64,000 nucleotides of DNA from Pseudomonadota bacterium (GTDB lineage: Bacteria > Pseudomonadota > Gammaproteobacteria > Acidiferrobacterales > Acidiferrobacteraceae), in assembly GCA_021819125.1 (NCBI GenBank), contig JAKARW010000002.1, positions 23,377-87,376 of the forward strand. The letters run 5' to 3'. Positions 40,515-59,489 of this stretch are shown here, piece by piece; the stretch's first letter is position 1; every line of letters starts with the position of its first letter. The notes under the pieces were generated by a model that was given only the letters and a program-made list of their open reading frames with translations, made no database searches and was not told the origin of the DNA. The translations under genes were made by a program, and so were the position numbers.

Positions 40515-41888
40515 TCATATGTCGGAAAGCACGCGCGTGATGGTCGCCGTCAACATCGACAGATCCTCCGGACTTATGATATAGGGAGGCATCAAATAGA
40601 CGAGCCGGCCGAAAGGACGCAGCCAGACACCCGCCTCCACGAATCGTGCCGTAAGCGCCGGCAGATCAATGGCGGCGCGGGTCTCCACGACCCCGATCGC
40701 GCCCAGTACCCGGACGTCGCCGACGGCCGCCAATCCACGGCAGGCGTCGAGCTCACGGGCCAGCTGGCCTTCGATATCCGCGACACGGATCTGCCAATCG
40801 CTTGCCGTCAGCAGGTCGACGCTCGCCACCGCCGCGGCGCACGCAAGCGGGTTGGCCATGAACGTGGGTCCGTGCATGAGGCAACCGGCCGGGCTCTGCC
40901 CGATCGTCGTGGCGATCTCGGCGGTTGTCAGGGTTGCGGCAAGCGTCATGTAGCCCCCGGTCAGGGCCTTGCCCAGGCACAGGATGTCCGGCGTCACCAT
41001 GGCGTGATCGCAGGCCAGAAATCGGCCGGTGCGACCGAAACCCGTGGCGATCTCATCGGCGATGAGCAGCACGGCGTGGGCGTCGCACAAGGCCCGCACC
41101 TCGCGCAGGTATTGCGGGTGATAAAACCACATCCCGCCCGCGCCTTGCGCGATGGGCTCCAGGATGACCGCCGCGAGTTCGTCTTCATGCGCGGATATCA
41201 GGTCGGCGAATGCGCTGATGGCCGATGGCTCCCAGGGGCCGTCGAACCGGCACGCGGGCCTCGGCGCAAAGACCTGTTCCGGGACAAGCCCGGTAAACAA
41301 CCGGTGCATGCCGGTGACCGGGTCGCACACCGACATGGCGGCAAAGGTGTCGCCATGGTAACCCCCGCGCACGGTGAGGAGACGGTGCTTGGCCGGCCGT
41401 CCGCGCGCCTGCCAATACTGGATCGCCATCTTGATGGCAACCTCCACGGCCACCGAACCCGAGTCGCACAGAAAGACCTTTTCGAGGGGCGCCGGGGTCA
41501 GATCCACGAGCCGCCGCCCAAGTTCGATCGCCGGTGCGTGTGTAAGCCCCCCAAACATGACATGCGCCATGCGCGCCAACTGCTCGCTGACAGCGCGATT
41601 GAGCACCGGGTGGTTATAGCCGTGGATCGCCGCCCACCATGAACTCATGCCGTCGATCAGCCGCCGGCCATCGGCAAGCGTCAGCCGTACGCCGTCGGCC
41701 GCCACCACCGGCCAGACCGGCGCGCCTAGGGCCGCGTAGGGATGCCAGAGATGGGCCTGATCGAACGCCACGGCGCGCGCCCAATCACAAGCTTCAGGTC
41801 CGCCACCCTCGGCCTGGGCGCCAGCGAGGCGGCCCTCCCCATCGCGCGTGCACGATCTTGTCTCGGAAATCGGACCCGTCTGGCTCAT
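40515..41888 (-). CDS. bioA: adenosylmethionine-8-amino-7-oxononanoate aminotransferase
   Basis: [25 protein letters not shown]. Confidence 0.94.
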
Positions 41889-43564
41889 GCTCCATCCGTC
41901 ACCGCGCCACGACTCGCAGACGAGACGAGGCGCGCATATTTGGCCAAGGTGCCGCGTGTATAGCGCGGCGCGGGGGGCGCCCAGAGCGCGCGGCGGCGCG
42001 TAAGCTCCTCCTCCGGCACGTCGAGTTGCAAGACACGCCGCTCGGCGTCGATGATCACCGTGTCGCCATCGGCCACCAATGCGATCGTGCCGCCGACTGC
42101 GGCCTCCGGCGCCACATGTCCCACCACCATACCATAAGTGCCGCCCGAGAAACGCCCATCAGTGACAAGCCCCACGAGGTCGCCTAGGCCCTGCCCGACG
42201 AGCGCCGCGGTGGGCGAGAGCATTTCGCGCATTCCGGGGCCGCCGCGCGGCCCCTCGTAGCGGATCACGACCACGTCGCCGGCCGCTATGCGCCGCTCCA
42301 TGATGGCGGCCATGCACGCCTCCTCGGAATCGAACACGCGCGCCGGACCGGTAATCCTCGGGGCCTTGACGCCGCTGGTCTTGGCAAGCGCCCCTTCGCA
42401 GGCGAGATTACCCTTAAGAATCGCCAAATGGCCGTGCGTATAGACCGGCCGCTCCCAGGGCCGGATGACATCCTGATCGGCACGAGGATGCTCGGGCACG
42501 TCTTGCAGGACCTCGGCGATCGTCTGCCCGGTCACGGTCAGGGCGTCACCGTGCAAAAGACCATGCGCGAGCAGCATTTTCATCACCTGCGGCACCCCGC
42601 CCGCGCGATGCAGATCGGTGGCGACATAGCGGCCGGACGGCTTGAGATCACACAACACCGGCACGCGGTGGCTGAAGGCATCGAAGTCGTCTAGCGTCAG
42701 TTCCACACCGGCGGCGTGCGCGATCGCCGGCAAGTGGATGACGGCGTTGGTGGAACCGCCCAACGCCATGAGCACCGCAAGCCCGTTTTCGAAGGCCTTG
42801 CGCGTAAGGATCGCGCGCGGCAACCGCCGCGCCTTTATGGCCTCGACCAGCACCCTTGCCGACTGCGCGGCGCTGTCGGCCTTTTCGGCATCCTCGGCGG
42901 TCATGGTCGCGGAGTACGGCAGGCTCATGCCCATGGCCTCGAATAGCGCCGACATGGTGTTGGCGGTGTACATGCCGCCGCACGACCCGGCGCCTGGGCA
43001 GGCCTTGCGTTCGATCTCGTGCAATTCCCGGTCATCGATCGTGCCGGCGATATGCGCGCCGACCGCCTCGAAGACACTTATGATGGTAAGGTCGCGCCCG
43101 TCATGATGGCCGGGCTTGATCGTGCCCCCGTAGACAAACACCGCCGGGATATTGAGCCGCGCGATGGCGATCATGGCGCCCGGCATGTTCTTGTCGCAAC
43201 CGCCGAAGGCCAACACCCCATCCATGCTCTGGCCGGCGCAAACGGTCTCTATCGAATCGGCTATAACCTCGCGCGACACGAGGGAATATTTCATGCCTTC
43301 GGTCCCCATGGCAATGCCATCCGAAATGGTAATAGTCCCGAACATCTGGGGCATGGCCCCGGCCGCGGCCAAAGCCGCCTCGGCGCGCGCGGCAAGAGGC
43401 CCAATCCCCATGTTGCACGGCGTGATCGTGCTGTGGGCGTTGGCCACGCCCACAATCGGCTTTTCGAAATCGTCATCGTCGAACCCGGTGGCGCGCAACA
43501 GCGCGCGGTTGGGGGCGCGTTTTGTGCCGGTCGTCACGACACGGCTTTTGTGGTTGTCAGACAT
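41885..43564 (-). CDS. ilvD: dihydroxy-acid dehydratase
   Basis: [42 protein letters not shown]. Confidence 0.95.
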
Positions 43565-43662
43565 TAAGGTCCTCCTTAAACGATGGTTGAGATCGATGCG
43601 GCTTGCGCCAGACGGGTGTGGGCGGACGAACCGCCGCCCGCCGGCCCAATAGGGGTGTCGGA

Positions 43663-44769
43663 TCAGTCGGCCAGACGCCACGCGACCACCTCCCCGGCGC
43701 GCAACGGCACGAACACATCGGCGCCGGCGGCCCTCGTGGATGGGACTTGCCATGGCTCCTTTATAAGCGTGACGCGATCTTGATTACGTGGCAGCCGGTA
43801 AAAGTCCGGCCCGTTGCAACTTGCGAACCCCTCCAGGCGATCGAGCGCATGGGCACCCTCGAAGACCTCGGCATAGAGCTCTAGCGCCGCGTGCGCGGTA
43901 TAGATCCCGGCGCACCCGCAAGACGACTCCTTGGCGTGCCGAGGGTGCGGCGCGCTGTCGGTTCCGAGGAAGAATTTCCGACTGCCACCGGTGGCGGCGG
44001 CCACCAGCGCGGCGCGATGATGGGCACGCTTTAGAAGCGGCAGACAGTAATGATGGGGCCGCAGACCGCCTGTAAACATCGCGTTGCGATCGAGCAGCAA
44101 GTGGTGGGCGGTGATCGTCGCGGCCAAGGTGTCAGGACTTGCGCTTACGAACTCGACCGCGGCACGGGTCGTGATGTGCTCCAAAACCATGCGCAGGCCC
44201 GGGAACGCACGCGTAAGCGGCAGCAAGTGGCGCTCGAGAAACACCGCTTCGCGATCGAAGGCATCCACCGCGGGGTCCGTGACCTCGCCGTGCAAGAGCA
44301 AAGGGACATCGAGACGTTCCATGGCCGCCAGCACCGGATAACAACGCGTAAGGTCGCGCACACCCTGCGCGGCATGGGTGGTGGCGCCAGCCGGATAATA
44401 CTTGACGGCGAGCACGGCTTTGGCGGCATGCGCCCGGGCAATCTCGTGAGGGCGCATGGCCTCGGTGAGAAAGAGCGTCATCAAAGGTTGAAAAGATGCG
44501 CCCGCGGGCAACGCCGACAGGATCCGCGCGCGATAGGCGAGCGCTTCGGCGACCGTGCGCACCGGCGGATCGAGGTTGGGCATGACAATGGCCCGGGCGA
44601 AGCGGCGTGCGGTGTCTGGCACCACCGCCGCCAACATCGCCCCATCCCGCAGATGAACATGCCAATCGTCGGGGCGCACAAGGCTTATGTGCGTGACCGG
44701 CGCCGGATGTCTTGGGCCATCGGCCAAAGCCACGGGGCGCGGCGCGCCATCGTCCGCGCACTCGCTCAC
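43663..44769 (-). CDS. pyrC: dihydroorotase
   Basis: [31 protein letters not shown]. Confidence 0.94.
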
Positions 44770-44951
44770 CGGGCCCTCCGGACGGCGCGCCAGGGGGCAA
44801 GACCGCCTGACGATATCCGCCCGATACGGCCGGGCGGGCGATCACAGGTCGCCGGTCGCGCCGTGTCGGTCACAGCCGTCGTGGCAGGCCACGGGGCGCA
44901 AGACGCGGCGAATACTATGGCGCTGAGGCGCAAGGTCTTCACGGGGCGGCT

Positions 44952-45836
44952 TTAAGGGTTGCAGATATCGCAACGGGCCGGATCGGCCTGCGCGCGGTCT
45001 TTCAGGTCACGCGTCACCCGGTGCCCGCACTTAAGACAACCATGGACCTCGGCGCGCGTCTCGCGCGTGGGCGCCCCACACGCTTGACAGGGAAGCCCGG
45101 CGATCACCTCCACCGTCCAGAACCCCGGGGTGCGGCAAACAGGGCAGAGCGATGCCAGACGTCGGCCGAGGTCGACTGCGGCGAGCCGGATATTGATGAG
45201 GCGTGTGGGGTTGGCATAGGCGCGTAGATCCACTTCCACGAACACGCGCCCGCTCGGCGACTGCGCGGCGGCCTCCTCATAGGCGGCCTTGAACGCCGAC
45301 CAATCCGCGATCCCCTTGCGGATACGGGGATCCCCATCGTGGTCGGGCCTTAAGACCAGATAATGCTCGGGAAAGCGCACCGTGTGCGCAAACCGCTCGG
45401 CATCCTCCCAATTCGCCGCCAGGATCTGGGCGCTGTTGGCCCGACCCTGCGCCATGCCGACCACCTCGAGTCCCAGCAAATCATCCAGAAAGACCAGGAA
45501 TTCGATATTCCAGGGAAACATCCCCGCAAACGGATCGCGGGTGAAAGATCCTTCGCTGGCAAGCCCGACCGAAAGCCCCGAGAGCTCCATGCCGATCCGC
45601 GCCTTGTGGCGGGCCGCCTCGATCTGCGTGCCGGCACGCGGGATGTCACGCGTGAATGTCCCGAGGAGATCGGTGTCATAGCCTGCCACCCGCTCGACAA
45701 GGCAACCCACGAATCCCTCGAGGACCGGACCTACGATCCGCTCCTTGCCGTGCTGGGTCAGAAACGCCGCACGCTGTCCCCGGTAGAGGCTGCGGGTCGA
45801 CGCGGCATAAGCCGCCATAGGCCCGTTTAGGCTCAT
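44952..45836 (-). CDS. DUF6671-like protein with C-terminal zinc ribbons
   Basis: four CxxC motifs (CPVC, CQAC, CLKC, CDIC); 4-nt overlap with DabA-like gene. Confidence 0.75.
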   Translation of the reverse strand: MSLNGPMAAYAASTRSLYRGQRAAFLTQHGKERIVGPVLEGFVGCLVERVAGYDTDLLGTFTRDIPRAGTQIEAARHKARIGMELSGLSVGLASEGSFTRDPFAGMFPWNIEFLVFLDDLLGLEVVGMAQGRANSAQILAANWEDAERFAHTVRFPEHYLVLRPDHDGDPRIRKGIADWSAFKAAYEEAAAQSPSGRVFVEVDLRAYANPTRLINIRLAAVDLGRRLASLCPVCRTPGFWTVEVIAGLPCQACGAPTRETRAEVHGCLKCGHRVTRDLKDRAQADPARCDICNP

Positions 45837-48112
45837 GATACCTGCTCCCATCGCCCGTCACGGGCGCGCAAGAAGAGGCCGGGGGCCTCGCTGTCCATCT
45901 GAAACAAAAACAGCCATCCATGCTCCACTACGCTATGCACGATCTCGTGGCGCGCCAACACCTCGTCCACCCGCGCGCGGGGCGCCTCCACGAACGCGTT
46001 GAGACGCAGCGGCTCGTGGGCCCCACGCCGACTGTCAAAGAGCGACGGGATCGAAAACCCATTGTCCCGATCGCCGCCCGCGCCCTCCCACGCCCCAATG
46101 CATCCACCCACCCTGTCGTGCAGGGCCTTGTGGCCGCCGCCGAAGCGTTTAGGGTCGACCACGGAGGCGTAGTACCGCATGTTCATCCAATGGGCCGCCA
46201 TCATCGGTGCGGTCATGAGGTAGCGCAAAATCCGGAAATCCGTATCCCGGCGCCACTCGTAATCATGCAGGAACGCGCGGCCATCCAACGCCACGCCCTT
46301 CGTGCGCGCGCGCGGCGCCGCGATAAAAGCGGCATTGCCGATAAATTCAGACTCAACGGCGGCTTGCGCCGATTGCGGCATGCGCGCGCCGACCGGGGCG
46401 CTTACGGGGTCCGCCGCGCACACAGGCGAGACAGGCGCGCAAACACGCTCCGCGCGCGCGTGCCGGCTTGCCTCCTCCAGGGCCGCGCGCGTAGCCCGCA
46501 GATCCCAGGCGTGCGTCGCCTCCCATGGTCCCGTATCGAACAAGACGACTTCATCGTGCGTGCTATCGTAGCGCGCGGGCACGAAGCTCGTATCCGCCGG
46601 GATCACAATCCCTTCTGGCGCAAGACGGGTGCGTACAGCGCGATCATTCAGCAAGGCCGCCACCGTCCGTACGTCCATTTCGCTTGTCCACCGTCCGATG
46701 GACGATTCCGCGGCATGCGGCTTATAACCGGGAAGCCGACTGTGATCGATCAGTAATACCAGCCGCGCGAAGCCGTCGGTGAGCGACATGACGCGAAGAA
46801 ATCCCGAGGCCATGGCACTTTGATCGGCATCGGTGATGACCGATGCCTGCTCGGCGTCTGCGCCCGGGCGTGACGCATGCGCGGGTGGCGTGACAGGCCA
46901 AAAGGCTTCCATGAACGGATCGAATGGGGCATGGGCGTACGCGAGGCCGCAGAAACCGCCAAACCCGAGGGTCTGGGTCTGCGGCGCGATCGTCTCCAGG
47001 GCGCGACGAAAGACCTCGGCGCGATTATTCATGCAAAAGACCACCTGGACCGCGGCGCGGCCCTGCGAGCCAAGGCGGTCAGGCCGCTCGCCGCAAGCCG
47101 CCAGATCAGCGACGATGCGTCGGCGGTATCCGAGCTCGAGCGCGGTCTGGAGGACCGAGTCGATTTGGGCATCGGGCGTCATGCGCGCCGAATGGGTCGA
47201 CGGCAGGGCCGAGAGCGCCGCCTGCCAAGCGGCCTTGAGGCGCGGCTTCGGGGCCGCGCAAAAAACGATGAGTTCCCAGGCGAGCCGGATGGCGAGCAGA
47301 TCCTCGATGTCGGCGCGGCCGCCGTCGGCTGCGCGTCCCTGGCGCGTCTCCTGCGCGCGGGTCGCCCATCCCCCGATATCGAGAAGTGCGGCGTGGCAAT
47401 AGTCCGTGATATGGGCGCTGGGGACGGCCAACGTCTTTAGGACGAGTTCGATGGACTTGAGTGGTTGCCGGGGCAGCCGCCCGACGATATCCGCCACCCC
47501 CTTGAGCCCCATGGTCCGGGGGCTTGCATCGAGCCTTGCGAAATCACGCCACGCGTCGTAGAGGGGCTCATCGCGCCACGGCAGGGGCCATGAGGCCTGA
47601 CCGGGATCGAAGTAGGCGGCGGCGAACTGACTGATGCGTTCGACACAGAATGCCGCCCACGGCGTATCGGGGTCGATCCGCTGCAAGATATGCGACACAA
47701 GCGGCAGCCTCTGCACGGGCGGCGCATCGTCGTGCGCCAAGAGACTCGCGGCGGACTTTTCGTCGGATGGCAGACCATGCGCCTTCAAGGCCTCGGCTAT
47801 ATCGCCGCGCGTGACGCGGCCGCATGCGATCTGCTCCCGGTAATAGCGGCGTGGCATGGTAAGCGTGGACCCGGCTACCCGCGCCAAGATCGGGCCCGCT
47901 TTCTCGAAATCCACATGACGCAATCCGAAGTAGGGATTGACGGCCACCGACGCATCCTGCGTCCAAGCCGGCGCGAGCCTGTCACAGGCCTTGCGCACCG
48001 CGACGCGCCACGCGGACTCGCCGCAGGTGACCGGGACTCCATCGGTCCACCCATGATCCCCCGCCACACACCGTGGCCCATCGACCCGCGATGCCCCTAG
48101 GAAGCCATCCAT
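45833..48112 (-). CDS. DabA-like (DUF2309) protein, divergent active site
   Basis: NPYFGLRH N-term; VVFCMNNRAEVFRRALE; C-terminal GRAFLHDYEWRRD..LMTAPMMAAHWMNMRYYASVVD..HEPLRL. Confidence 0.85.
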   Translation of the reverse strand: MDGFLGASRVDGPRCVAGDHGWTDGVPVTCGESAWRVAVRKACDRLAPAWTQDASVAVNPYFGLRHVDFEKAGPILARVAGSTLTMPRRYYREQIACGRVTRGDIAEALKAHGLPSDEKSAASLLAHDDAPPVQRLPLVSHILQRIDPDTPWAAFCVERISQFAAAYFDPGQASWPLPWRDEPLYDAWRDFARLDASPRTMGLKGVADIVGRLPRQPLKSIELVLKTLAVPSAHITDYCHAALLDIGGWATRAQETRQGRAADGGRADIEDLLAIRLAWELIVFCAAPKPRLKAAWQAALSALPSTHSARMTPDAQIDSVLQTALELGYRRRIVADLAACGERPDRLGSQGRAAVQVVFCMNNRAEVFRRALETIAPQTQTLGFGGFCGLAYAHAPFDPFMEAFWPVTPPAHASRPGADAEQASVITDADQSAMASGFLRVMSLTDGFARLVLLIDHSRLPGYKPHAAESSIGRWTSEMDVRTVAALLNDRAVRTRLAPEGIVIPADTSFVPARYDSTHDEVVLFDTGPWEATHAWDLRATRAALEEASRHARAERVCAPVSPVCAADPVSAPVGARMPQSAQAAVESEFIGNAAFIAAPRARTKGVALDGRAFLHDYEWRRDTDFRILRYLMTAPMMAAHWMNMRYYASVVDPKRFGGGHKALHDRVGGCIGAWEGAGGDRDNGFSIPSLFDSRRGAHEPLRLNAFVEAPRARVDEVLARHEIVHSVVEHGWLFLFQMDSEAPGLFLRARDGRWEQVS

Positions 48113-48401
48113 GGCGCCCCCTTTTCCCTGCGGTGGCGCGCCGGGCGGACGACGCACGCCGCAAGGACTGCAAAGAACGTAGACACTGGCGCCCCCATCG
48201 ACCGCTGCGTTGTTCCTATAGGCGAGATCCTGGTCACGGGTTTGGCCCTCCGGCCGCACCGCCCATTGCGGCAAACGAGGATGTTAAAGACCTTTAAGAA
48301 TAAGCGACACTTAATATTAAAAATTATGAGGATTTACCGCGGTTAATTCCCGTTCGCGGCACGCCGGCCCAGACCTTGGGCCTTACCCCTCATCGCGGGC
48401 C

Positions 48402-49628
48402 TTACGCCCGATCGGGGACCAGGGCCGGCCGAAACGCCAAGGGCGCGATCTCTGGAATAAGGTCGACCATACGGTAATCGCCTTCGATGCGATCGGAGGC
48501 CACCGGCGCCAGACGCCGATCCATGAATCCGGTATAGGCCGGGTGCCTACGAAAGGCATCGACCGCCGGTGCCGAGGCAAGACGCGCCAGCAGGCAGTGG
48601 CGATACCGGCCGCCCTCACCTGCGACGTGGCCGACCTGAACGGAGCGCACCCCCGGGATGCCCGACAAAATCCGCTGCCCCTCGGTCATCAGGGCCTGCA
48701 ACGCCGGGGCATCCAGACGCGGCGCATCGTAAACGACGATATGCATGATGTTGTTCCACGGGCGGCACCGGTCGAGCACTTCCGCGGCGCGACCCGCCGA
48801 GCCCCATGCGCGCATGGGCGGCTCGAGCTGCGCGGCGATGCTTTCATGGATGCCATCCTTCAGGGCGCTGTAAGACGCATGACGATCGCCTCGTACGTTG
48901 GCCCGCAGCCGCTCGCTCGCCATGGCGCCCGGGGCCACGGAGCAGGAGATCTTGGCCACACCCAACATGATAAATCTACGGCATTGCTCATCGCCCAACC
49001 CCATCTCGCCTGAAATGACCAACGGTATCTTAAGCGCGGCATTGATCTCCTTGAGGCGCCCCCAGTCGAACCGCGACCTTCCTCGCCCCCGCACCATGTC
49101 TGCCGAAACGAGTAGGAAATCCACTTGGGTGCGCTCCACAAAACCCTTGGCCTCGGCCACGGTCGCATATTGAACGGCGCGCGGTGCGTGGCCTTCTGTG
49201 GCGTCGCCATCGGGCGCATAGGCCAATTCGCCTTCGACCGGCACCCCGCAGGCATGTGCCGCATCCACGATCGCGCGTGTGCGGTCGATATGACGAAAGA
49301 GCGATTCCTGAAGGGCGCGCGCGACGATGCCGTTGGCGCCCAGGCGGACACCGCGTACCACGGAATCCCTGTCGGTCCCGCCATCGAAGTGGATCGCCAC
49401 GGGAACGGTGGCGCGTGCCGCGGCGGCCTCCACGGCGGCCATGACCCAGGCGAAGACAGGACTTTGAGACGGCGGCTCGGCGACACTGAGGATGACCGGC
49501 GCGCGCGCCGATTCGGCCGCCGCCAACACCGCCGGCAGGAAATCCAGCTCCGCGAGATCGAACGCGCCCACCGCATAGCCGTTCTCGTAAGCGTGCGTGA
49601 GCATGTCCTTCATGTCCACCAACGGCAT
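48402..49628 (-). CDS. class II aldolase-like protein fused to Dabb-like domain
   Basis: VDMKDMLTHAYENGYAVGAFDLAELDF.., C-terminal HIVVYDAPRL..GIPGVRSVQVG..HPAYTGFM. Confidence 0.82.
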   Translation of the reverse strand: MPLVDMKDMLTHAYENGYAVGAFDLAELDFLPAVLAAAESARAPVILSVAEPPSQSPVFAWVMAAVEAAAARATVPVAIHFDGGTDRDSVVRGVRLGANGIVARALQESLFRHIDRTRAIVDAAHACGVPVEGELAYAPDGDATEGHAPRAVQYATVAEAKGFVERTQVDFLLVSADMVRGRGRSRFDWGRLKEINAALKIPLVISGEMGLGDEQCRRFIMLGVAKISCSVAPGAMASERLRANVRGDRHASYSALKDGIHESIAAQLEPPMRAWGSAGRAAEVLDRCRPWNNIMHIVVYDAPRLDAPALQALMTEGQRILSGIPGVRSVQVGHVAGEGGRYRHCLLARLASAPAVDAFRRHPAYTGFMDRRLAPVASDRIEGDYRMVDLIPEIAPLAFRPALVPDRA

Positions 49629-49982
49629 AGCAAGTCCTCAAGACATCGATGACGGGAGTCGAAAGCCGCCGCGACTTGCCCCGCGCGCGATGGCCGAAAG
49701 CCCCCGCGCCCCGCGCCAAAAAACGCGGCTTTGAATGGGCCGGGGTGTCCGACCCGAAGATAGGACGCGGCCCCAAAGGCAGCGCTCTTTGGTTCGCGCG
49801 CGCCCGTGGCGCACGGGCGGTGCCCCATCAAGGGGTTACCGATCCCGCCGCATAGACCCAAGACCCCGTCGCTTTGGTCCCGGCTCATGTGGCAGGAGAC
49901 CCCGTTAGGCGTGATCGAATTTAGAGAGTAATATGCTTAAAGAGAAGTCAGTCTTAATTAGCGTAGCTATTTATCGTAGTTA

Positions 49983-50969
49983 ATGATTAACCATTGGACG
50001 CTCCAGCAACTTCGGCTCTTCGAGGCGGTCGCCCGTCACCGCAGCTACACGCGCGCGGCCGAGGAGCTGTGCCTGACGCAACCCGCGGTCCACATCCAGG
50101 TGCGCAGGCTCGAGGAGATCGTAGGCCTGCCGCTGATCGAGCGGGTCGGCAAGAAGCTTTTGCTGACGCGCGCGGGCGAAGAGGTGTACGCCGCCACGGT
50201 CGCGGTGATGGATCAGTTGCGCGCGCTCACAGGCGAGATCGCGGACATGAAGGGCAAGGTGGCAGGCCCCCTGAAGATGGCCGTGGTCACCTCCGCCAAG
50301 TTCTTCATGCCGCATTTCCTCGGACTTTTCATACAGGAATATCCCGATGTGGCGCCCCAGCTCATAGTCACGAACCGCGCGCGCGTGCTGGAGCGCCTGA
50401 CGGAAAATCTCGATGACTTCGTCATCATGGGACAGATCCCAAACGATATGGACCTCACGGTCCGGCCGTTCATGGACAACCTGCTGGTGGTCGTGGCGCA
50501 CCCAGACCACCCGTGGGCGGACCGCGTCGATATCCCCCTGGCGGAGATCGTGCGCGAACGTTTCTTGTTGCGCGAGGCCGGTTCCGGGACACGCATGTCG
50601 GCCGCGCAGATGTTCGCCGAACAGGGGCTCGACGTGAAGCCCTACATGGAGCTTGGGTCGAGCGAGGCCATAAAACAGGCGATCATGGCCGGTCTTGGGA
50701 TCTCGGTGCTGGCCTTAAGCAGCCTGGAACTCGAATTGGAGGCGAGACGTCTCGTCATCCTGGATGTCGCAGGCTTCCCCTTGCATAGGACATGGTACGC
50801 GGTCCATCTGCAAGGCAAGCATCTGGGCCTCACCGCCAGCGTGTTCCTGGACTTTCTGGTCAAGGAGGGCCCCGACCTCGGGGTGCGCAAGGGCTGGGTG
50901 GCCGAACTTCACCCCGCCCATCGCCCGCGCGAGGCGCGCAAAAAACTCGGAAAGACGCGTACCCCGTGA
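49983..50969 (+). CDS. cbbR: LysR-family regulator, CbbR-like
   Basis: TLQQLRLFEAVARHRSYTRAAEELCLTQPAVHIQVRRLEEIVGLPLIE. Confidence 0.88.
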   Translation: MINHWTLQQLRLFEAVARHRSYTRAAEELCLTQPAVHIQVRRLEEIVGLPLIERVGKKLLLTRAGEEVYAATVAVMDQLRALTGEIADMKGKVAGPLKMAVVTSAKFFMPHFLGLFIQEYPDVAPQLIVTNRARVLERLTENLDDFVIMGQIPNDMDLTVRPFMDNLLVVVAHPDHPWADRVDIPLAEIVRERFLLREAGSGTRMSAAQMFAEQGLDVKPYMELGSSEAIKQAIMAGLGISVLALSSLELELEARRLVILDVAGFPLHRTWYAVHLQGKHLGLTASVFLDFLVKEGPDLGVRKGWVAELHPAHRPREARKKLGKTRTP

Positions 50970-51010
50970 CGCAAGGCCACCTGCCGCCGGACGGTCTTTG
51001 GCGCCTGCGC

Positions 51011-52117
51011 CTATCGCGCGCCCGGCTCCGGCCATTTCTGGCGCTTTTTCAAGATAGCCTCCACCAAGCCAATGGCGCGCTCGAAACTTGTCGCCACGTG
51101 CCGAAAGCGAATGCGCGCACCGGGGCCTAGCATGCTCTGAAAACGCGGCCCGACCCGTTCGTCGGGATCGTACACACGAAACATCTCAAGCGGATTATCC
51201 CCGACCGACCCCAGCGCATACAGGTAGCGAAAGAACAGATCCGACTCCGGCAATGAGTAGCCGATCACGAAAATGTGCTGGGCATCCGACAACTCCTGGG
51301 CCGCCTGGGCCCATACCCGGGTGAACTCGCTTTGGTAGCCGTACTTGTTCCAGGTCGGCGGCACGATCACCGGATGCTCGCCCGATGGACGGTCGAGGAT
51401 ATGCGCCGTGGTGCAGAGCCGGAACACGCCCTCCGCGTGCCTGCGAAACACGATGCCTGCCGACTCCGCCAACAAGCGATCCATCCTCCAGGGCACCACC
51501 TCTCCGGTCGCCCCTGCCACCCAGTTGAGCGAGCCGTGCAGCTTGAGAAGCGGGATACCGGCGGGCGGATCGGAGTCGTCCAGGCAATAGCGCACCGGAA
51601 TTCCCCCTTGATGCAAAGCGTAATCCAAAGCCAGGTCATAATTGAACGTGAGGATGGCGTGACGGTATGGGGGTGATGCCGCCTGGCTCTCGCGCAGGAG
51701 CTCCACAAACCGGGGGTAGGGGTCGGGCGCCACCGGCAGATCCCCGGCGCGTTTTTCGTTGAAGTTGAGCGTCGACTCCAGGGTGTAGGCGATGACGGTC
51801 TTCAAGGCCGCGATCAAGGCATCGATCTCGCTCACTCCGTAGCCTGGCATTCGGCCAAGAAGCCGGGCCATCTCAAAGGCCGCGAACACACTCTCGACAT
51901 TGGTGATATCGAGATCCTGCGCCTTCGAATGCACGGCCTGGAGTTTACCGATCGCCTCGAAGACACGGGCGAAATCCCCCGCGCGGCCCTGCACGGCCCC
52001 GGTAAACAAAAGCCGACGCGCCTTGTCTAGAAAGTTGCTCATGACCGGCGCGCCGCCCTGCTGCGACGCCCCCGCCCCGAGAATGAATACGACATCAGCC
52101 ACTTGTAACCTCCGCAC
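51011..52117 (-). CDS. SIR2-domain protein
   Basis: VVFILGAGASQQGGAPVMSNFLDKA..; AILTFNYDLALDYAL; KLHGSLNW. Confidence 0.82.
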   Translation of the reverse strand: MRRLQVADVVFILGAGASQQGGAPVMSNFLDKARRLLFTGAVQGRAGDFARVFEAIGKLQAVHSKAQDLDITNVESVFAAFEMARLLGRMPGYGVSEIDALIAALKTVIAYTLESTLNFNEKRAGDLPVAPDPYPRFVELLRESQAASPPYRHAILTFNYDLALDYALHQGGIPVRYCLDDSDPPAGIPLLKLHGSLNWVAGATGEVVPWRMDRLLAESAGIVFRRHAEGVFRLCTTAHILDRPSGEHPVIVPPTWNKYGYQSEFTRVWAQAAQELSDAQHIFVIGYSLPESDLFFRYLYALGSVGDNPLEMFRVYDPDERVGPRFQSMLGPGARIRFRHVATSFERAIGLVEAILKKRQKWPEPGAR

Positions 52118-52426
52118 CTGCCGGCAGACCGCCTCTCGCCGTTACATTACTACGAAACTCCGGCCATGTTCCACGGCCGGCGCCCTCAAGCAAAACATAA
52201 ATGGTTTCGACGCATCGAGACCGATATAAATAATCGAGATTATACGGGCCATGCGTGGTGGTACAAATACTAGACTCATAGAGTCTGGTAAAGTTTAATA
52301 ATTGCCAATATTAAGTGTTCTTAATGGCGCCACATCCGTTACATTGCCTCGCATTCACGCCGTCTGGGTTCGAGTTTAAAGACGGCAATAATAAATCACG
52401 CGGGCGCCAAAGGCGCGCCATTACGA

Positions 52427-53395
52427 ATGGGGGGCTTTGTGGATTCTACGAATGGCGTCGTGACCTATGGCTTTCACGGGGTGACGGATACTGAAAAGGT
52501 CCTCCTCCAGTCCATGATCGAGCGGATATCCCGCAGTCTGCCAGGTCCGGTGGCGCAAGTGCCGGCACGCGACGCACAGCTCGTGTTCTTCGATGGGCCA
52601 GCGCCCCACCCAGACAAGACCGAAAGGCGGCTTGTGCGTGTGGTCCGGGACCCAGGCGCGCGGCGGTTCTCGGGCGGTCTGCGCATGCCGCCTCACGTCA
52701 CGGATCTCCTCGATATCTTCACGGAATTCGTGGAGCAGGGGGCCTATGCGCAGACCCGGTGCACGGCCATGCGGTCGCTGGTCCGCTCGCTCCACGACCT
52801 GTTCCGAACCCGCGGCGCGCCGCACGCGCTCATCGACAAAGACGGCACGAGCCTCGTCTTGTACCCGGCCGATCGGCAGTTCTCGTGGTCGGATTCCGAA
52901 AACACACGAGCCCTGCCCGAATTCTTCCAATCGCACCGGCTCCCGGGACTCGACCTGCGTCCATGGGACGCGTCCGAACCCGGAGAGGGCCGGGAGCGGC
53001 GCGGCATTGAGCCCCTATTTTGGCACATGGGGCTTGCGCACGCGCGTTGCGGGCTCTTGCCATGGGTCGGGCGTGACGACCCCCTCAAGATGCGCGCGTG
53101 GCCCTATCTCACGGCCCAAGGACCGGCCACCGCGACCCGTCTTGCCACCGTCTTGCGCACACGACCACAAAGCGTGGCGGCCCTGGCGGATGCCGCTTGC
53201 GTCCCCGAGACCGATGCCGTGGCATTCGCCAATGCCGCGCTTTTGTGCGGATTCGTGGTGACCGCGAAGTCGACGGACACACAGGCCTTGGCGCACCGAC
53301 CGAGCGCCCCTGACGCGGACTTAAGGGCCTTGGGCACGGCGCGACGGCCCGGCATTCTGGGCGCCATCCGCAACGCCCTGGGGATACGTTCGTGA
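52427..53395 (+). CDS. hypothetical protein upstream of GTPase/roadblock genes
   Basis: 322-aa ORF overlapping GTPase gene by 4 nt. Confidence 0.7.
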   Translation: MGGFVDSTNGVVTYGFHGVTDTEKVLLQSMIERISRSLPGPVAQVPARDAQLVFFDGPAPHPDKTERRLVRVVRDPGARRFSGGLRMPPHVTDLLDIFTEFVEQGAYAQTRCTAMRSLVRSLHDLFRTRGAPHALIDKDGTSLVLYPADRQFSWSDSENTRALPEFFQSHRLPGLDLRPWDASEPGEGRERRGIEPLFWHMGLAHARCGLLPWVGRDDPLKMRAWPYLTAQGPATATRLATVLRTRPQSVAALADAACVPETDAVAFANAALLCGFVVTAKSTDTQALAHRPSAPDADLRALGTARRPGILGAIRNALGIRS

Positions 53396-53985
53396 GCGAG
53401 GAACTGAAGCTTTTGTTCGCGGGCGCGATGGGCGCGGGCAAGACCACCGCGATACGCGCGATCAGCGAAATCGCGCCCATAACAACCGAGGCTGCCAACA
53501 GTGACCACACGGAATGCAACAAAGAGGAGACCACCGTGGCCATGGATTATGGCGAGATCACGTTGGCGACAGGCGAGAAGCTGCGGCTCTATGGGACCCC
53601 GGGCCAGGCGCGCTTTCAGTTCATGTGGCCGATCCTTGCCACCGGGGCCCTTGGCGTGGTGATCCTGATCGACAACTCACGCCCCGACCCCTTGGCGGAC
53701 CTCGAGCTTTACCTCGATGCCTTTCGCGCGCTCGCCGATGGCGGCGCCGCGGTCGTGGGCGTCGGACGCATGGACCGCTGCCCACAGCCATCGCTCGAGG
53801 CCTACGCCGAACGGTTGGCGGCGCTCGATGTCGTGGTTCCGATCGTGCCCGCCGACGTGCGCCGGCGCGACGAGGTCCTCACAATGCTCGAAATTCTTCT
53901 CCAACAGCTCGAGGCGACATGGGCCTATGACGAGGCCATCGGCGACGGCCTGTCGGGTCACGGATTAATGGGAGCGCATCCATGA
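53392..53985 (+). CDS. small Ras-like GTPase (MglA/COG2229-like)
   Basis: LLFAGAMGAGKTTAIRAIS; LYGTPGQARF; overlaps next gene by 4 nt. Confidence 0.88.
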   Translation: MSEELKLLFAGAMGAGKTTAIRAISEIAPITTEAANSDHTECNKEETTVAMDYGEITLATGEKLRLYGTPGQARFQFMWPILATGALGVVILIDNSRPDPLADLELYLDAFRALADGGAAVVGVGRMDRCPQPSLEAYAERLAALDVVVPIVPADVRRRDEVLTMLEILLQQLEATWAYDEAIGDGLSGHGLMGAHP

Positions 53986-54410
53986 ACGCGCGCGCCATTG
54001 CGCCAGACGTGATCGCGGCCTTTGATGAGGAGATTCGTAAGCTGCATGCCCGGGTGGCGGGCGTCATCGGGTGCGTGCTCGCCACCACGGACGGACGACG
54101 AGTATCGGCGGTGGTCGACAACGAGGCCGATCCGCAGCGGGTGTCGGCAATGGTGGGATCGATCGTGGCGCTCGGCGAGACCATCGGCCGCGAAGTCATG
54201 ATCGGGCGCACGCAGTTTGTCGCGGTGAGCGCGGTGGACGGCATGATCCTGCTCCAGAGGGTACCGGCCAAGCGCGATCTGCTGGTCGTGGGGACGTTGG
54301 CGCGGCGCCATACCAATCTCGGGATTCTTCTGCACGAAACCGGGATCGCCGCCGAGGCCGCGGCCCGGATTCTCGACGACTGGTTGGGGCGCGACTTGCA
54401 GCCCGCTTGA
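53982..54410 (+). CDS. roadblock/LC7-domain protein
   Basis: VAGVIGCVLATTDGRRVSAVVDNEADPQRVSAMVGSIVALGETIGRE. Confidence 0.82.
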   Translation: MNARAIAPDVIAAFDEEIRKLHARVAGVIGCVLATTDGRRVSAVVDNEADPQRVSAMVGSIVALGETIGREVMIGRTQFVAVSAVDGMILLQRVPAKRDLLVVGTLARRHTNLGILLHETGIAAEAAARILDDWLGRDLQPA

Positions 54411-54485
54411 TGGCTGCCGGATTGACAGCAACACCGCGAGGCACCTCTCGCGGCTACGAGACTCAACAGAGGATGGATATAAGTC

Positions 54486-54845
54486 ATGGCAAAAGTGGAT
54501 CTGAGCAGTATTCAGGATATCGACGGGTTTATCGCAGCGGCGCTCGGCGATTCGAGTAGCGGCATGCTGTTGGCGAGGACCGGAAACCAGGCGGTCGACC
54601 TGGATCTGGCGATAGCCGGCAATTCGGAGGTGGTGAACACGAAACGCGCACTGGTGGCGCGCCTGAATCTCGACGACAAGATCGAGGATATCCTTATTAC
54701 GCTTGGCAAGCAGTACCACCTGATCCGGCCCCTGGAACGTAACGACCAGCTGTTCCTCTATCTGATGCTGGATCGCGCCAAGGCCAATCTCGCCATGGCC
54801 CGCCATGAATTGAGGGTCTACGAAAAGACCCTGGATTTTTCTTAA
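54486..54845 (+). CDS. second roadblock/LC7-like protein
   Basis: IQDIDGFIAAALGDSSSGMLLA..EDILITLGKQYHLIRPL..LFLYLMLDRAKANLAMARHEL. Confidence 0.78.
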   Translation: MAKVDLSSIQDIDGFIAAALGDSSSGMLLARTGNQAVDLDLAIAGNSEVVNTKRALVARLNLDDKIEDILITLGKQYHLIRPLERNDQLFLYLMLDRAKANLAMARHELRVYEKTLDFS

Positions 54846-55112
54846 AGCAGGTGCGGGGACCTTGCCCAAACGCGGCCATGGGGGCCGCTATGGCGGGCCA
54901 CGGCTGACTCAAGGTGTCGCACCAGGCAAGACGGGGTCTTTGTGAAAGACATCATACTTATTGCCTCACCAAAACCCGCGGGCCGCATGCCCAAAGACCG
55001 TCCATGACACGCAGCGCAGCCCAGCCGCTTATCCTGCCGTACAGGGGCCTCGCCGATAAGGCGAATGTCGTACGGCGTGCGCCGGGGCCTATCGCCATTG
55101 AGAGATCACACC

Positions 55113-56612
55113 ATGACCGTACGCTGGCATGAAACCCCCCTCCTCGATCCCGGCATGTTTTATGACTATGAACGCGCGATCCTGGCACAGGCATCGACGG
55201 GCGATGTGCCACTCGGCTTTGCGCGCCTTGGGCCTTGCGCGCTGGTCGGGGTCTTCGATGATCCGGATCGTTCGCTCAGGCGCTCGTTTGTCGATGGCCA
55301 CCTGCCGATCGTGCGCCGGCGCACCGGCGGCGGCAGTCTTTATGTCGACCAGGGGACGACCCTCATGGTCGCGGCCCTACCGCGGGTCCTGGTAGCGCAA
55401 CATGCGCTGACCGCGATAATCGCACTTGTCGGCGAAGTGATTGCCGAGGCGTTGCGCAGCCAGGGTATGAGTGCGACATTTACCGCCCCTAATGACATCA
55501 CAGACGACGGCCGCAAAAGGGGTAGTGTGTTCGCCGTGCGGTGTGGCGAAGAGATACTCATCGAGGCGGCTCTCTTGTTTGCGGTCGATATCGACTCCCT
55601 GATGAAGACCATCAAGCTGCCGCTCGAGAAATTGTCGGCGGCGGGATTGTTGGCCGCCGCCCAGCGGTTTGCCCCCATCGGTGGCCGAGAGCCCTCGGCG
55701 GTGGCGGCGCGCATCTATCCTGCGATCGCCGCGGCGCTTGCCACGCGCCTGACGATGGGCGTGGCGGTCCAAACGCCACCCGCCGTCCGTATCGAACCCC
55801 CGCCCCCCGGCAGGACCGGCCTCATTCCCGACGTCAGCGCTTTTCTAAAGACCCAGGGGGGCGTCTTGTATCTCGACATCCTACTCGACGGTGAGAGCGT
55901 GCGCGCCGCGCGCGTCAACGGTGGGGTCCAGTGCGCGGGGGCCACCGACTTGGAGCAACTGGCCAACGCCATGACCGGGGTGCGCCTCGATGATCTGGAA
56001 GCCGCCGCCTTGGCCGCGGCGCCAAGGGACACCCTTGGCTTCGACCACAGGGATGTTGGCTACCTCGCGCGGCTTTGTGTGGAGCGTCAGCTTCTGGGCG
56101 AGCGCCTGGGTATCCCGGGGGGCGCCGAGCGCGTGACGCTCTACAGCCCGCGCCGCGACCAAGGGTTCGCGGATCTGCTCGCCGATGTGGGGGCCCTGTT
56201 GCTGCCCTACTGCGCCAAGCCCGCCTGGTGCAAATGGCGCCATCGTGATGGCTGCCCGGAATGTGGACAATGCGCCGTGGGAGAGGCCTATCGCCTCGGG
56301 CGGGAACGCGACCTACCCGTGACCACGATCACCCGCTACGAGCATCTGCACATGGTGTTGGCGCAGCTGCGCGCCACGGGAATACGCACGTTTTTGGGCG
56401 TCTGCTGTACGGAATTCTTTCTCAAACGCGACTATGCCTTCGTAGAGGCCGGCCTGGGGGCCATATTCATCGATATCGGCGGCGACACCTGTTACGCGCT
56501 GCGCGCCGAAGAGTCGGCGTATCGCGGCGAGTTTACAGCCGAGGCGACACTCGATTCCCGATTGCTGGATCAGGTGTTGCGCCTGAGCGACACGCATGAC
56601 CCATCGATTTAG
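55113..56612 (+). CDS. lipoate-protein ligase-like domain fused to DUF116
   Basis: VRRRTGGGSLYVDQGTT LplA motif; C-terminal YCAKPAWCKWRHRDGCPECGQCAVGEA.., GVCCTEFF. Confidence 0.8.
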   Translation: MTVRWHETPLLDPGMFYDYERAILAQASTGDVPLGFARLGPCALVGVFDDPDRSLRRSFVDGHLPIVRRRTGGGSLYVDQGTTLMVAALPRVLVAQHALTAIIALVGEVIAEALRSQGMSATFTAPNDITDDGRKRGSVFAVRCGEEILIEAALLFAVDIDSLMKTIKLPLEKLSAAGLLAAAQRFAPIGGREPSAVAARIYPAIAAALATRLTMGVAVQTPPAVRIEPPPPGRTGLIPDVSAFLKTQGGVLYLDILLDGESVRAARVNGGVQCAGATDLEQLANAMTGVRLDDLEAAALAAAPRDTLGFDHRDVGYLARLCVERQLLGERLGIPGGAERVTLYSPRRDQGFADLLADVGALLLPYCAKPAWCKWRHRDGCPECGQCAVGEAYRLGRERDLPVTTITRYEHLHMVLAQLRATGIRTFLGVCCTEFFLKRDYAFVEAGLGAIFIDIGGDTCYALRAEESAYRGEFTAEATLDSRLLDQVLRLSDTHDPSI

Positions 56613-57025: not shown

Positions 57026-58003
57026 TTATCCTGCCGAGTACGGACCCAAGAACCGCACACCATTAAAATGGATCAAGTGGCTCGGGTGATCGGCAATCCA
57101 CACCTCGGACTCCCAGGAAATCACTTCCTGGTACTTGTTGAACGTGCGGCGGTCAGGGAAAGCGGACACGAACACGAGGCCGGCGCCGCAATCCTGAAAG
57201 AGTTCGCTCAACTCCTGGTGGCGTTTGGCGTCCACGGGTCCATGCGAGGTCACGGCCTCGGCCAGGATGAGCCAACTCCGATCCGGGTCGTAGATCATGA
57301 CATCGGGCATTTTGCCATGCGCTCCCATGGTGATACCAAGGGAGGCCAGCAAGGACTCGTTACAGTATCCCCATTTCTTCCCCGTATCGCCGGCATACAC
57401 GAGTTGCCCGCCCGGTATAAAACGCGGTCCAAATTCTTCACAGAGGGCCTTGATGAGCGCGCTATGATGGCCGGGTGAAAGCAGGACCTCCTGCCCCGAA
57501 GCGACCCATAACGGGACCATGCGCATCCAGCGGGGCATCGCCTGTTGGGCGACCAACGTCCCACGGACCGCGAGAAAGTTGGCGAGCCTCATCGCATACT
57601 CCTCGGTCCCTAAGGCCTGGAGGGCATCCAGGCACGCCGGTTCTATCTGGTAGACGGCGTTCGGGCTATTGACCGGCCGGTCAGGCTGGTCCGGGTTGTA
57701 GAGCGCAAGCCCGGCCTGGATAAACTGATGCATGGTCTGACGGCGGAAGGTCTCGCGCGTATTGGGCGCGTAGGGCTTTTCGTAATGAAGACGCGCCCAG
57801 TCCATGATCGGCGTGATGCCCATCAAGGGGTCTGTGGCCGCGTTCCAGGGCTTGTCTGGGGTGAGATCTAACAAGGCCAACAGACAAAGGGCGGAGCGCT
57901 CATTGCGTTGTGCCCGTGGCATGCCCAAATCGTCCAGCACACCCAAGGCCTCCTGGATCCGTTGGGTCTTGGGATCGTTATTACTCACGGCATCGCTCGA
58001 CAC
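57026..58003 (-). CDS. BsuBI/PstI-family type II restriction endonuclease
   Basis: family-like C-terminus (GKMPDVMIYDPDRSWLILAEAVTSHGPVDAKRHQELSELF); overlaps adenine methylase gene. Confidence 0.85.
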   Translation of the reverse strand: MSSDAVSNNDPKTQRIQEALGVLDDLGMPRAQRNERSALCLLALLDLTPDKPWNAATDPLMGITPIMDWARLHYEKPYAPNTRETFRRQTMHQFIQAGLALYNPDQPDRPVNSPNAVYQIEPACLDALQALGTEEYAMRLANFLAVRGTLVAQQAMPRWMRMVPLWVASGQEVLLSPGHHSALIKALCEEFGPRFIPGGQLVYAGDTGKKWGYCNESLLASLGITMGAHGKMPDVMIYDPDRSWLILAEAVTSHGPVDAKRHQELSELFQDCGAGLVFVSAFPDRRTFNKYQEVISWESEVWIADHPSHLIHFNGVRFLGPYSAG

Positions 58004-59489
58004 AGGCGTCGATGGCCTCTTGTGTTGCCGGTCCTGCCCGCTTGGCCCATTGTCCGTAACGGATCAGGGTGGCATGATCGGGATATCGCAAAGCGCGCAG
58101 ATCCCCGGCGTTGACTTGGGTATGCCCGCTAAATTCGCGAAAGGCCTGGTCTGCCCCGCTGGAATTGAGGAACACCGCGAGCCCCCGCGCCAGATCCTCG
58201 GGGAGGCCTGCCTTGCTGTGGTGGAAAACGTTCAAGTGGTTCTCAAACCCATACAGGGGTTGTGGCATCTCGTTGGGGTCGATCACAAAGGCCACCAAGC
58301 GCCGCCGTTCCTCCTTCGCGGAAAACCGCTTGGTAAGCGTATAGAAGCCGCGCGGCATGAGCCATTTGCGGGTCTCGGGATGGAGCGCCAGAGCATTGGG
58401 TTTCTTGTGCGCCACAGGCCAGGAAAGATGACCGCCCGGGAAGTGGTGCGCATATAAGAGCGGGGCATAGTCCCCGTCCGGAGTCGCCTGCGCGTGCGCA
58501 CGCACTCGAAAATCGACCACGGGGCCCGTGGAGACCGTAAGGCCCAGGTCCGCTAGGGTACATGGCAAAAGCGCGCGCAACTTGTCGTCGTGGCCATCTG
58601 GAATGCGAATGAACTGATGGGGATCTCCTGGGTGGACGATTTCTGCAAAGGGGACTTCCCGGCTCTCAAGATCGGTAAAGTGCGCATCTTGAGAAAAGGA
58701 CACGGCCACGGACTGGGGCTTGGCGCCACGTACCAACCGGATAATGATGTTTTCCTGCAAGACCTCGTCGTCTTTAAAGGCACTGCTTCGGCTCTCAAAG
58801 ACATGAAGATGGGTAATGGCTGTCCGTTCCAAGAGAAAACGACGAAAGGGTCGAAAGTAAGTGCCATTACAGAAACTCCGAGGGACAATGGCGACGATTT
58901 CCCCGCCCTCTGCCATCAAGGCGATGGTAAGTCCCAGGAATGCACTGTAGAGGTTACCGGTCTCAAGACCTATAGCCCGCAAGAGCCGCCGATATTCAGA
59001 GGCGTTCGTGATCTTCTTGTACGGCGGATTGAGAATGGCATGGGTAAACCGAGGGGCGCCCATACCCGACAGGAAGCTTGCCTCATGGATAAAATCGCGA
59101 TCGTGAGTCACGCCCCGAAAATGCTGTCCTCGATCACGGAGGCGCTCTTTGATATCGCCCATGTGGTCTTGAAAGTATCTCAGCAGTACCGGATCCACCT
59201 CGTAGCCGTGAGCCTCCAAGGTCGCATTCGGAGGCGCCTGCCGCACGAATTGTTCGGCGAATGCCTCCGTCAGCGATCCAACACCGGCGCCTGGATCCAG
59301 TAAACAGACTTTTGCCGGCCATTGGGCGAAGAGAGACGCCATGAAGTCCGCTATGGCGGTGGGGGTCATGAACTGACCGAGGCGCGATCGCGCGGACGGG
59401 TCGAGTTGGCCTGTCGCCACACTTCGCACCGCATCAATGGACCGACTCACGACAGGAGGCACGCTTTTGCTTAATCCGTGACTTCCCAT
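57981..59489 (-). CDS. type II N6-adenine DNA methyltransferase
   Basis: LGQFMTPTAIADFMASLF; LDPGAGVGSLTEAF; NPPYKKI (NPPY). Confidence 0.92.
   Translation of the reverse strand: MGSHGLSKSVPPVVSRSIDAVRSVATGQLDPSARSRLGQFMTPTAIADFMASLFAQWPAKVCLLDPGAGVGSLTEAFAEQFVRQAPPNATLEAHGYEVDPVLLRYFQDHMGDIKERLRDRGQHFRGVTHDRDFIHEASFLSGMGAPRFTHAILNPPYKKITNASEYRRLLRAIGLETGNLYSAFLGLTIALMAEGGEIVAIVPRSFCNGTYFRPFRRFLLERTAITHLHVFESRSSAFKDDEVLQENIIIRLVRGAKPQSVAVSFSQDAHFTDLESREVPFAEIVHPGDPHQFIRIPDGHDDKLRALLPCTLADLGLTVSTGPVVDFRVRAHAQATPDGDYAPLLYAHHFPGGHLSWPVAHKKPNALALHPETRKWLMPRGFYTLTKRFSAKEERRRLVAFVIDPNEMPQPLYGFENHLNVFHHSKAGLPEDLARGLAVFLNSSGADQAFREFSGHTQVNAGDLRALRYPDHATLIRYGQWAKRAGPATQEAIDACVERCRE

Follow-up and report, generated by a model that had tools for sequence, protein, structure and literature searches.

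A DabA-family protein without Asp353, Cys539 and the DabB-docking finger, probably non-catalytic, in acid-loving, CO2-fixing bacteria

Gene content of the locus

The window, a 64,000-nucleotide stretch of DNA from a 2.15 Mb, 108-contig draft genome, encodes a DabA-family protein at 45833-48112 on the minus strand, which we call DabAv. The features relevant to this protein are the following.

41885..44769, minus strand: pyrC and ilvD, arranged downstream just as they are in Acidithiobacillus-type dabB-dabA-DUF6671-pyrC-ilvD clusters
44952..45851, minus strand: DUF6671 protein (PF20376) with C-terminal zinc-ribbon-type Cys pairs; 19 bp overlap with the end of DabAv
45833..48112, minus strand: DabAv, a DabA/DUF2309 (PF10070) protein of 759 aa in which Asp353, Cys539 and the DabB-docking finger are absent
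46673..46747, minus strand: former GHGS..NNP..LDCGAC segment (DHSRLPGYKPHAAESSIGRWTSEMD, residues 456-480), His457 kept and Cys539 lost
46745..46948, minus strand: shortened segment (residues 389-456), finger helices a16/a17 missing
47021..47035, minus strand: CMNNR in place of CIDVR (C351 kept, D353N, R355 kept)
48296..48351, minus strand: conserved element about 200 bp upstream of DabAv, with the core GGTAAAT-N13-AATATTAAGT at 48309-48338 and a TTA-N7-TAA box
48402..49628, minus strand: FBAv (P0003), a class II fructose-bisphosphate aldolase of the cbbA type fused to a Dabb domain
49905..49992, no strand assigned: conserved block at the LysR start with two TNA-N7-TNA boxes, a possible CbbR-type operator
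49983..50969, plus strand: divergent LysR/CbbR-like regulator; the best NCBIfam model is CbbR at 232 bits, below its cut-off of 450
52287..52316, plus strand: a further copy of the element, lying 111 bp before the cluster of the 52427 gene, a small GTPase and roadblock proteins

The order LysR, FBAv-DabAv-DUF6671-pyrC-ilvD, with LysR divergent, is fixed among the genomes that carry DabAv. The genes flanking DabAv enclose no dabB, as the first-pass annotation had stated, and a dabB is present elsewhere in the window genome (L045). The DabAv and DUF6671 frames meet or overlap in seven of eight genomes; however, the pair is not obligatory, since DUF6671 persists alone in several genomes. A structural model of the DUF6671 protein (pLDDT 81) had no PDB match below E = 0.001, and a literature search returned no paper on DUF6671.

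In the window, FBAv has lost all three zinc histidines (HLDHG / GTVHG / LVIHGG). None of the copies in the genus keeps the full set, those of sister genomes being partly or fully degenerate, whereas it is intact in most relatives outside the genus. Intact relatives occur in other families of the order, and in several genomes they adjoin CbbR-like and RuBisCO genes (RuBisCO judged by eye from the sequence starts). The FBAv match in one sister genome (L050; G002:C9:21047-22255) crosses one in-frame TAG near its end. The window genome encodes another, canonical class II FBA and two canonical DabA proteins, both intact, so that neither dead protein is the cell's sole copy; it also carries three RuBisCO large-subunit genes.

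Beside LysR lies a SIR2-like domain protein (51011-52117, minus strand) that is very strongly conserved in the genus, with a dN/dS of about 0.06. Further genes in the window encode a lipoate ligase-like domain fused to a DUF116-like region just under the cut-off (55065-56612, plus strand) and a BsuBI/PstI-type restriction endonuclease with an Eco57I-like methylase (57026-59489, minus strand).

Loss of the zinc site and of the membrane finger

The PF10070/DabA profile covers the whole of DabAv (538 bits against a cut-off of 25) and the solved DabA2 (PDB 9rd0) matches it with E=4e-118, in agreement with the earlier claim that the landmarks of the DabA/DUF2309 fold are present. An AlphaFold2 model of DabAv built from a 13-row alignment had a pLDDT of 56 and a pTM of 0.41, and Foldseek found nothing significant for it in the PDB.

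In the 2026 structure of DabA2, C351, H524 and C539 coordinate the zinc, the D353-R355 pair holds the water bound to it, and the relay runs via S356/H585/D590 (PMC13144422). The substitutions C351A, D353A/N, R355A, H524A, C539A and E444A/Q each abolish or severely impair function (PMC13144422). Translation and alignment to 9rd0 confirmed the reading of codons 47021-47035 as CMNNR, with Asn for Asp; overall, the window protein has C, N, R and A at positions 351, 353, 355 and 356, and Tyr in place of H585. The second Cys ligand is indeed gone, IDHSRLPGYKPHAAESSIGRWTSEMD standing where GHGS..NNP..LDCGACAG is canonical. The more general statement that the zinc and active-site residues had been lost holds for C539 and D353, but C351, R355 and the His ligand H524 (as D-H457-S) are retained. 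Hence, with C351, H524 and C539 as ligands and the D353-R355 pair holding the water, DabAv has lost one of three direct zinc ligands and the catalytic Asp.

The same pattern is seen across the DabAv orthologues. Among the ligands, C351 is present in 8/8, H524 in 7/8 (lost in G013) and C539 in none; within the dyad, D353 is absent throughout (N, H, G or S instead) and R355 is kept in six of the eight. The proton-relay residue H585 is Tyr in all eight. The former GHGS..NNP..LDCGAC segment is hypervariable. A Cys-Asp-His-Cys set conserved elsewhere in the protein would have argued against loss of the site, and none was found in the sequence alignment of the orthologues; compensating ligands within the replaced loop can be rejected, given its free variation.

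A change larger than these residue losses concerns the membrane finger (a16/a17, E444), which docks DabA into DabB (PMC13144422). Compared with DabA2, about 90-100 residues are absent from DabAv, among them the finger helices with E444. The distance from the GF(F/C)G turn to H524 is 50-68 residues in DabAv orthologues (68 in the window protein) compared with 157-173 in canonical DabA, and the finger is gone in 8/8. Since D353, C539 and the finger are missing from all eight independently assembled orthologues, these changes are not due to chance or sequencing error.

Distribution and origin of DabAv

Among the 60 relatives examined, full-length DabAv occurs in 8 of the 14 genomes of the host genus, the window genome included; the window's host is an acid-loving, CO2-fixing bacterium, and the other carriers are seven species that are sister to it. 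The other seven orthologues are 59-73% identical to the window protein. DabAv is missing in the remaining six genomes of the genus (G012, G009, G010 and G001 among them), two of which are incomplete, and is thus dispensable. Profile searches covering 57 genomes of the order and a sample of 399 genomes from the phylum gave no other uninterrupted DabAv, and in 19/19 loci drawn from the phylum sample the CIDVRSE and H..C motifs are intact. When about 85,000 genomes of named species were scanned, five of the same DabAv came back, on MAG contigs, and otherwise canonical DabA only, from Acidithiobacillus, Ferrovum and MAGs.

In a quick tree under a mixture model, DabAv forms one clade (SH-aLRT 100) that is sister to the Acidithiobacillus/Ferrovum type (SH-aLRT 96) and stands apart from the host genus's own DabA. 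An AU test against grouping DabAv with the genus DabA gave p = 3e-73, and p = 0.0012 when two rows were added, and a recent duplication within the genus is rejected as the source. This placement is strong but not final, because the branches are long. The first-pass annotation had proposed a paralogue of the DAB and had suggested looking for a DUF2309 clade with constant neighbours. The clade and its fixed neighbours are there, but its sister is the Acidithiobacillus type; descent from the genus's own DAB finds no support in either the tree or the AU test.

Acidithiobacillus-type DabA sits in the order dabB-dabA-DUF6671, followed in several loci by pyrC-ilvD or one of these genes, and locus L110 shows the complete dabB-dabA-DUF6671-pyrC-ilvD. 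As DabAv-DUF6671-pyrC-ilvD is the sister-type order minus dabB, the DabAv locus is most simply read as a DAB operon that lost dabB. In a genome of the same family (G016), broken dabA fragments adjoin DUF6671 (L093 17578-18302), possibly the same locus in decay.

Selection on DabAv

Pairwise NG86 estimates, as distinct from codon-model likelihood, and within one genus, put the dN/dS of DabAv at 0.27-0.35 with a median of 0.30. The corresponding NG86 values are 0.116 for canonical DabA, 0.116 for DabB, 0.092 for LysR, 0.145 for DUF6671 and 0.264 for FBAv. The H524-C539 loop has a dN of 0.353 in DabAv versus 0.010 in canonical DabA, and the regional dN/dS of DabAv is 0.225 for the N-terminal domain and 0.196 for CA-II. 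All eight ORFs are open over 723-760 codons with no stops, and 258 columns are invariant among the orthologues. The chemistry of DabAv is released from selection but the scaffold is not. Neither a disrupted ORF nor neutral evolution, the marks of a pseudogene, is seen; DabAv has the features of a pseudoenzyme, with catalytic residues gone and purifying selection acting on the protein.

An upstream element common to DabAv and dabBA

We derived the upstream element from DabAv before searching for it; the genome-wide search and its control were independent of gene positions. Exactly three sites in the 2.15 Mb window genome match the pattern GGTAAAK-N13-AAYATTAAGT in full, against 0 for the reversed-pattern control. 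The three matches precede DabAv, the canonical dabBA (213 bp before the likely dabB start) and the 52427 gene cluster (111 bp before the gene); one more genomic site fits with two mismatches. With up to one mismatch allowed, these three sites are also present in each of G004, G008 and G012. G012 retains the element although DabAv is gone and DUF6671 is still there, and so the element may mainly drive DUF6671. The 52427 cluster (52287-54845, plus strand) encodes a 322-aa protein, a small GTPase and roadblock-like proteins, a module of the MglA/roadblock type that possibly belongs to the same regulon.

One half of the element (ATTAAC-N4-GTAAAT) resembles the block beside the LysR start. TNA-N7-TNA boxes, as the motif is defined in PMC2942843, number 72 in the window versus 74.5 expected and are uninformative alone; their conservation and the longer element are the only informative part. 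We infer LysR as the candidate regulator of all three element-bearing operons. No sigma-70 promoter or terminator was matched within 48000-50100, nor any Rfam family within 44000-51000.

Discussion

DAB complexes are among the major means of concentrating CO2. As a DAB, DabAv is almost certainly dead: judged by its sequence, the known DabA mechanisms are all closed to it. The first-pass view of a catalytically dead DabA relative thus gains strong support from the clade of eight, the finger deletion, the relaxed active site and the constrained scaffold. It is nonetheless likely that DabAv is maintained and expressed, very probably together with the working DAB. Since the zinc site and the membrane anchor are lost yet selection persists, and the promoter element is the same as that of the pump, DabAv is probably a non-catalytic helper or regulator and not a pump. 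On balance we favour a DabA pseudoenzyme, non-catalytic and co-regulated with the working DAB; whether its role is a regulatory or scaffold one tied to the DAB seems to us evenly poised. Repurposing, as first suggested, is plausible, with purifying selection and the common promoter element favouring a retained function.

Such a protein could have arisen from an Acidithiobacillus-type DAB operon that was made redundant by the genus's own dabBA and lost dabB, after which the coupling finger and the zinc chemistry would have been lost from DabAv. What is left would be a soluble scaffold of the helical N-terminal domain and the beta-CA-like domain II, produced alongside the working DAB under control of the adjacent CbbR-like LysR. 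Most likely it would work non-catalytically, by binding DUF6671 and/or by modulating either the working DAB or the CbbR-like regulator. In a more specific version, which we regard as improbable, DabAv would be a non-catalytic sensor or regulator of inorganic carbon, a membrane-free scaffold able to bind either CO2/HCO3- or the working DabA/DabB and acting together with DUF6671 and the CbbR-like LysR to tune a regulon of dabBA, dabAv-DUF6671 and the GTPase/roadblock cluster. If so, we know of no earlier regulatory pseudoenzyme in the DAB family.

The main rival to a maintained pseudoenzyme is that DabAv is a slowly decaying relic of a redundant CCM operon (cbbA-dabA-DUF6671), in which DabAv and FBAv linger because decay is slow and the downstream DUF6671 needs expression. 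Two neighbouring enzymes without catalytic residues would fit such a relic, as would the absence of DabAv from G012, G009, G010 and G001, the FBA remnant left in G009, the dabA fragments beside DUF6671 in G016 and an evolution 2-3 times faster than that of canonical DabA. However, eight ORFs of 723-760 codons have stayed open at a dN/dS of about 0.3, not 1, 258 columns are invariant at 58-73% identity to the window protein, and the scaffold is strongly conserved where the active site is not; we consider decay unlikely. Less likely again is conversion to a metal or thiol protein, in which the DabAv-specific cysteines C156, C239, C340 and C388 with the retained C360 (=C351) and C43 would make a new putative metal or disulfide site, for example C360-C388-H457. 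Of the 30 residues that are fixed specifically in DabAv, four are Cys (binomial p about 0.005), and C388 stands in for F379 at a distance of three residues from Ala376 of the CO2 cavity, but the p value is weak, gained cysteines tend to remain fixed and H457 is lost in G013.

That DabAv is still an active DAB with DabB supplied in trans is very improbable. Genes for dabB do exist in trans, the canonical dabBA lying at a distance of about 15 kb in G004, G008 and G002, the residues C351, R355 and H524 are mostly kept, and the promoter element is common to both; yet DabAv is without the finger needed for DabB coupling, D353 and C539 are lost in 8/8, and D353N and C539A each fail singly in DAB2 (PMC13144422). 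An assembly or sequencing artefact, for which the 108-contig draft might speak, has next to no probability and is already ruled out by the orthologues: the gene, its losses and its synteny are alike in eight genomes, including the single-contig G004.

Having lost exactly the zinc site and the DabB finger and kept the rest, the DabAv clade is a clean natural experiment on the use of the scaffold, and it bears on how the DabA zinc site and the DabB finger share the work. The common promoter element offers a direct handle on DAB control in acidophiles, and the locus sets the DUF6671 gene firmly in a DAB context.

Comparison with known systems

The closest characterised protein is DabA2 of Halothiobacillus neapolitanus (9rd0; DAB2 complex, PMC13144422), with which DabAv aligns over nearly its full length except in the finger region. 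Equivalents of its C351, R355 and H524 are all present in the window protein, whereas D353, C539, H585, the finger helices with E444 and an adjacent DabB are each lacking, and the active-site loop is unconstrained, unlike that of DabA2. The sister clade, the Acidithiobacillus/Ferrovum-type cluster (L107-L114), has the same downstream order DabA-DUF6671-pyrC-ilvD; there dabA is canonical and preceded by dabB, whereas the DabAv locus has no dabB and a dead cbbA-type aldolase upstream. FBAv itself has the aldolase-Dabb domain fusion of cbbA in the A. ferrooxidans cbb1 operon (Pfam01116+Pfam07876; PMC2942843), the zinc histidines being gone only on the FBAv side.

The och operon of Leptospirillum sp. 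CF-1 is described as nuoL-DUF2309-hypothetical-DHAD followed by Sua5, an order reported as confined to Leptospirillum (PMC9080137). In our terms this is dabB-dabA-hypothetical-ilvD with tsaC/Sua5 nearby, apparently the gene order of the Acidithiobacillus/Ferrovum-type cluster. The order dabB-dabA-DUF6671-ilvD, in which DUF6671 may correspond to the hypothetical gene, also occurs in Ferrovum and MAG loci (L110, L114; pyrC inserted in L110). On that basis, och would probably count as a DAB operon and not as a chromate redox system. The och DUF2309 protein retains the CXXC (= CGAC) on which its proposed redox role is based (PMC9080137), a motif that is lost in DabAv.
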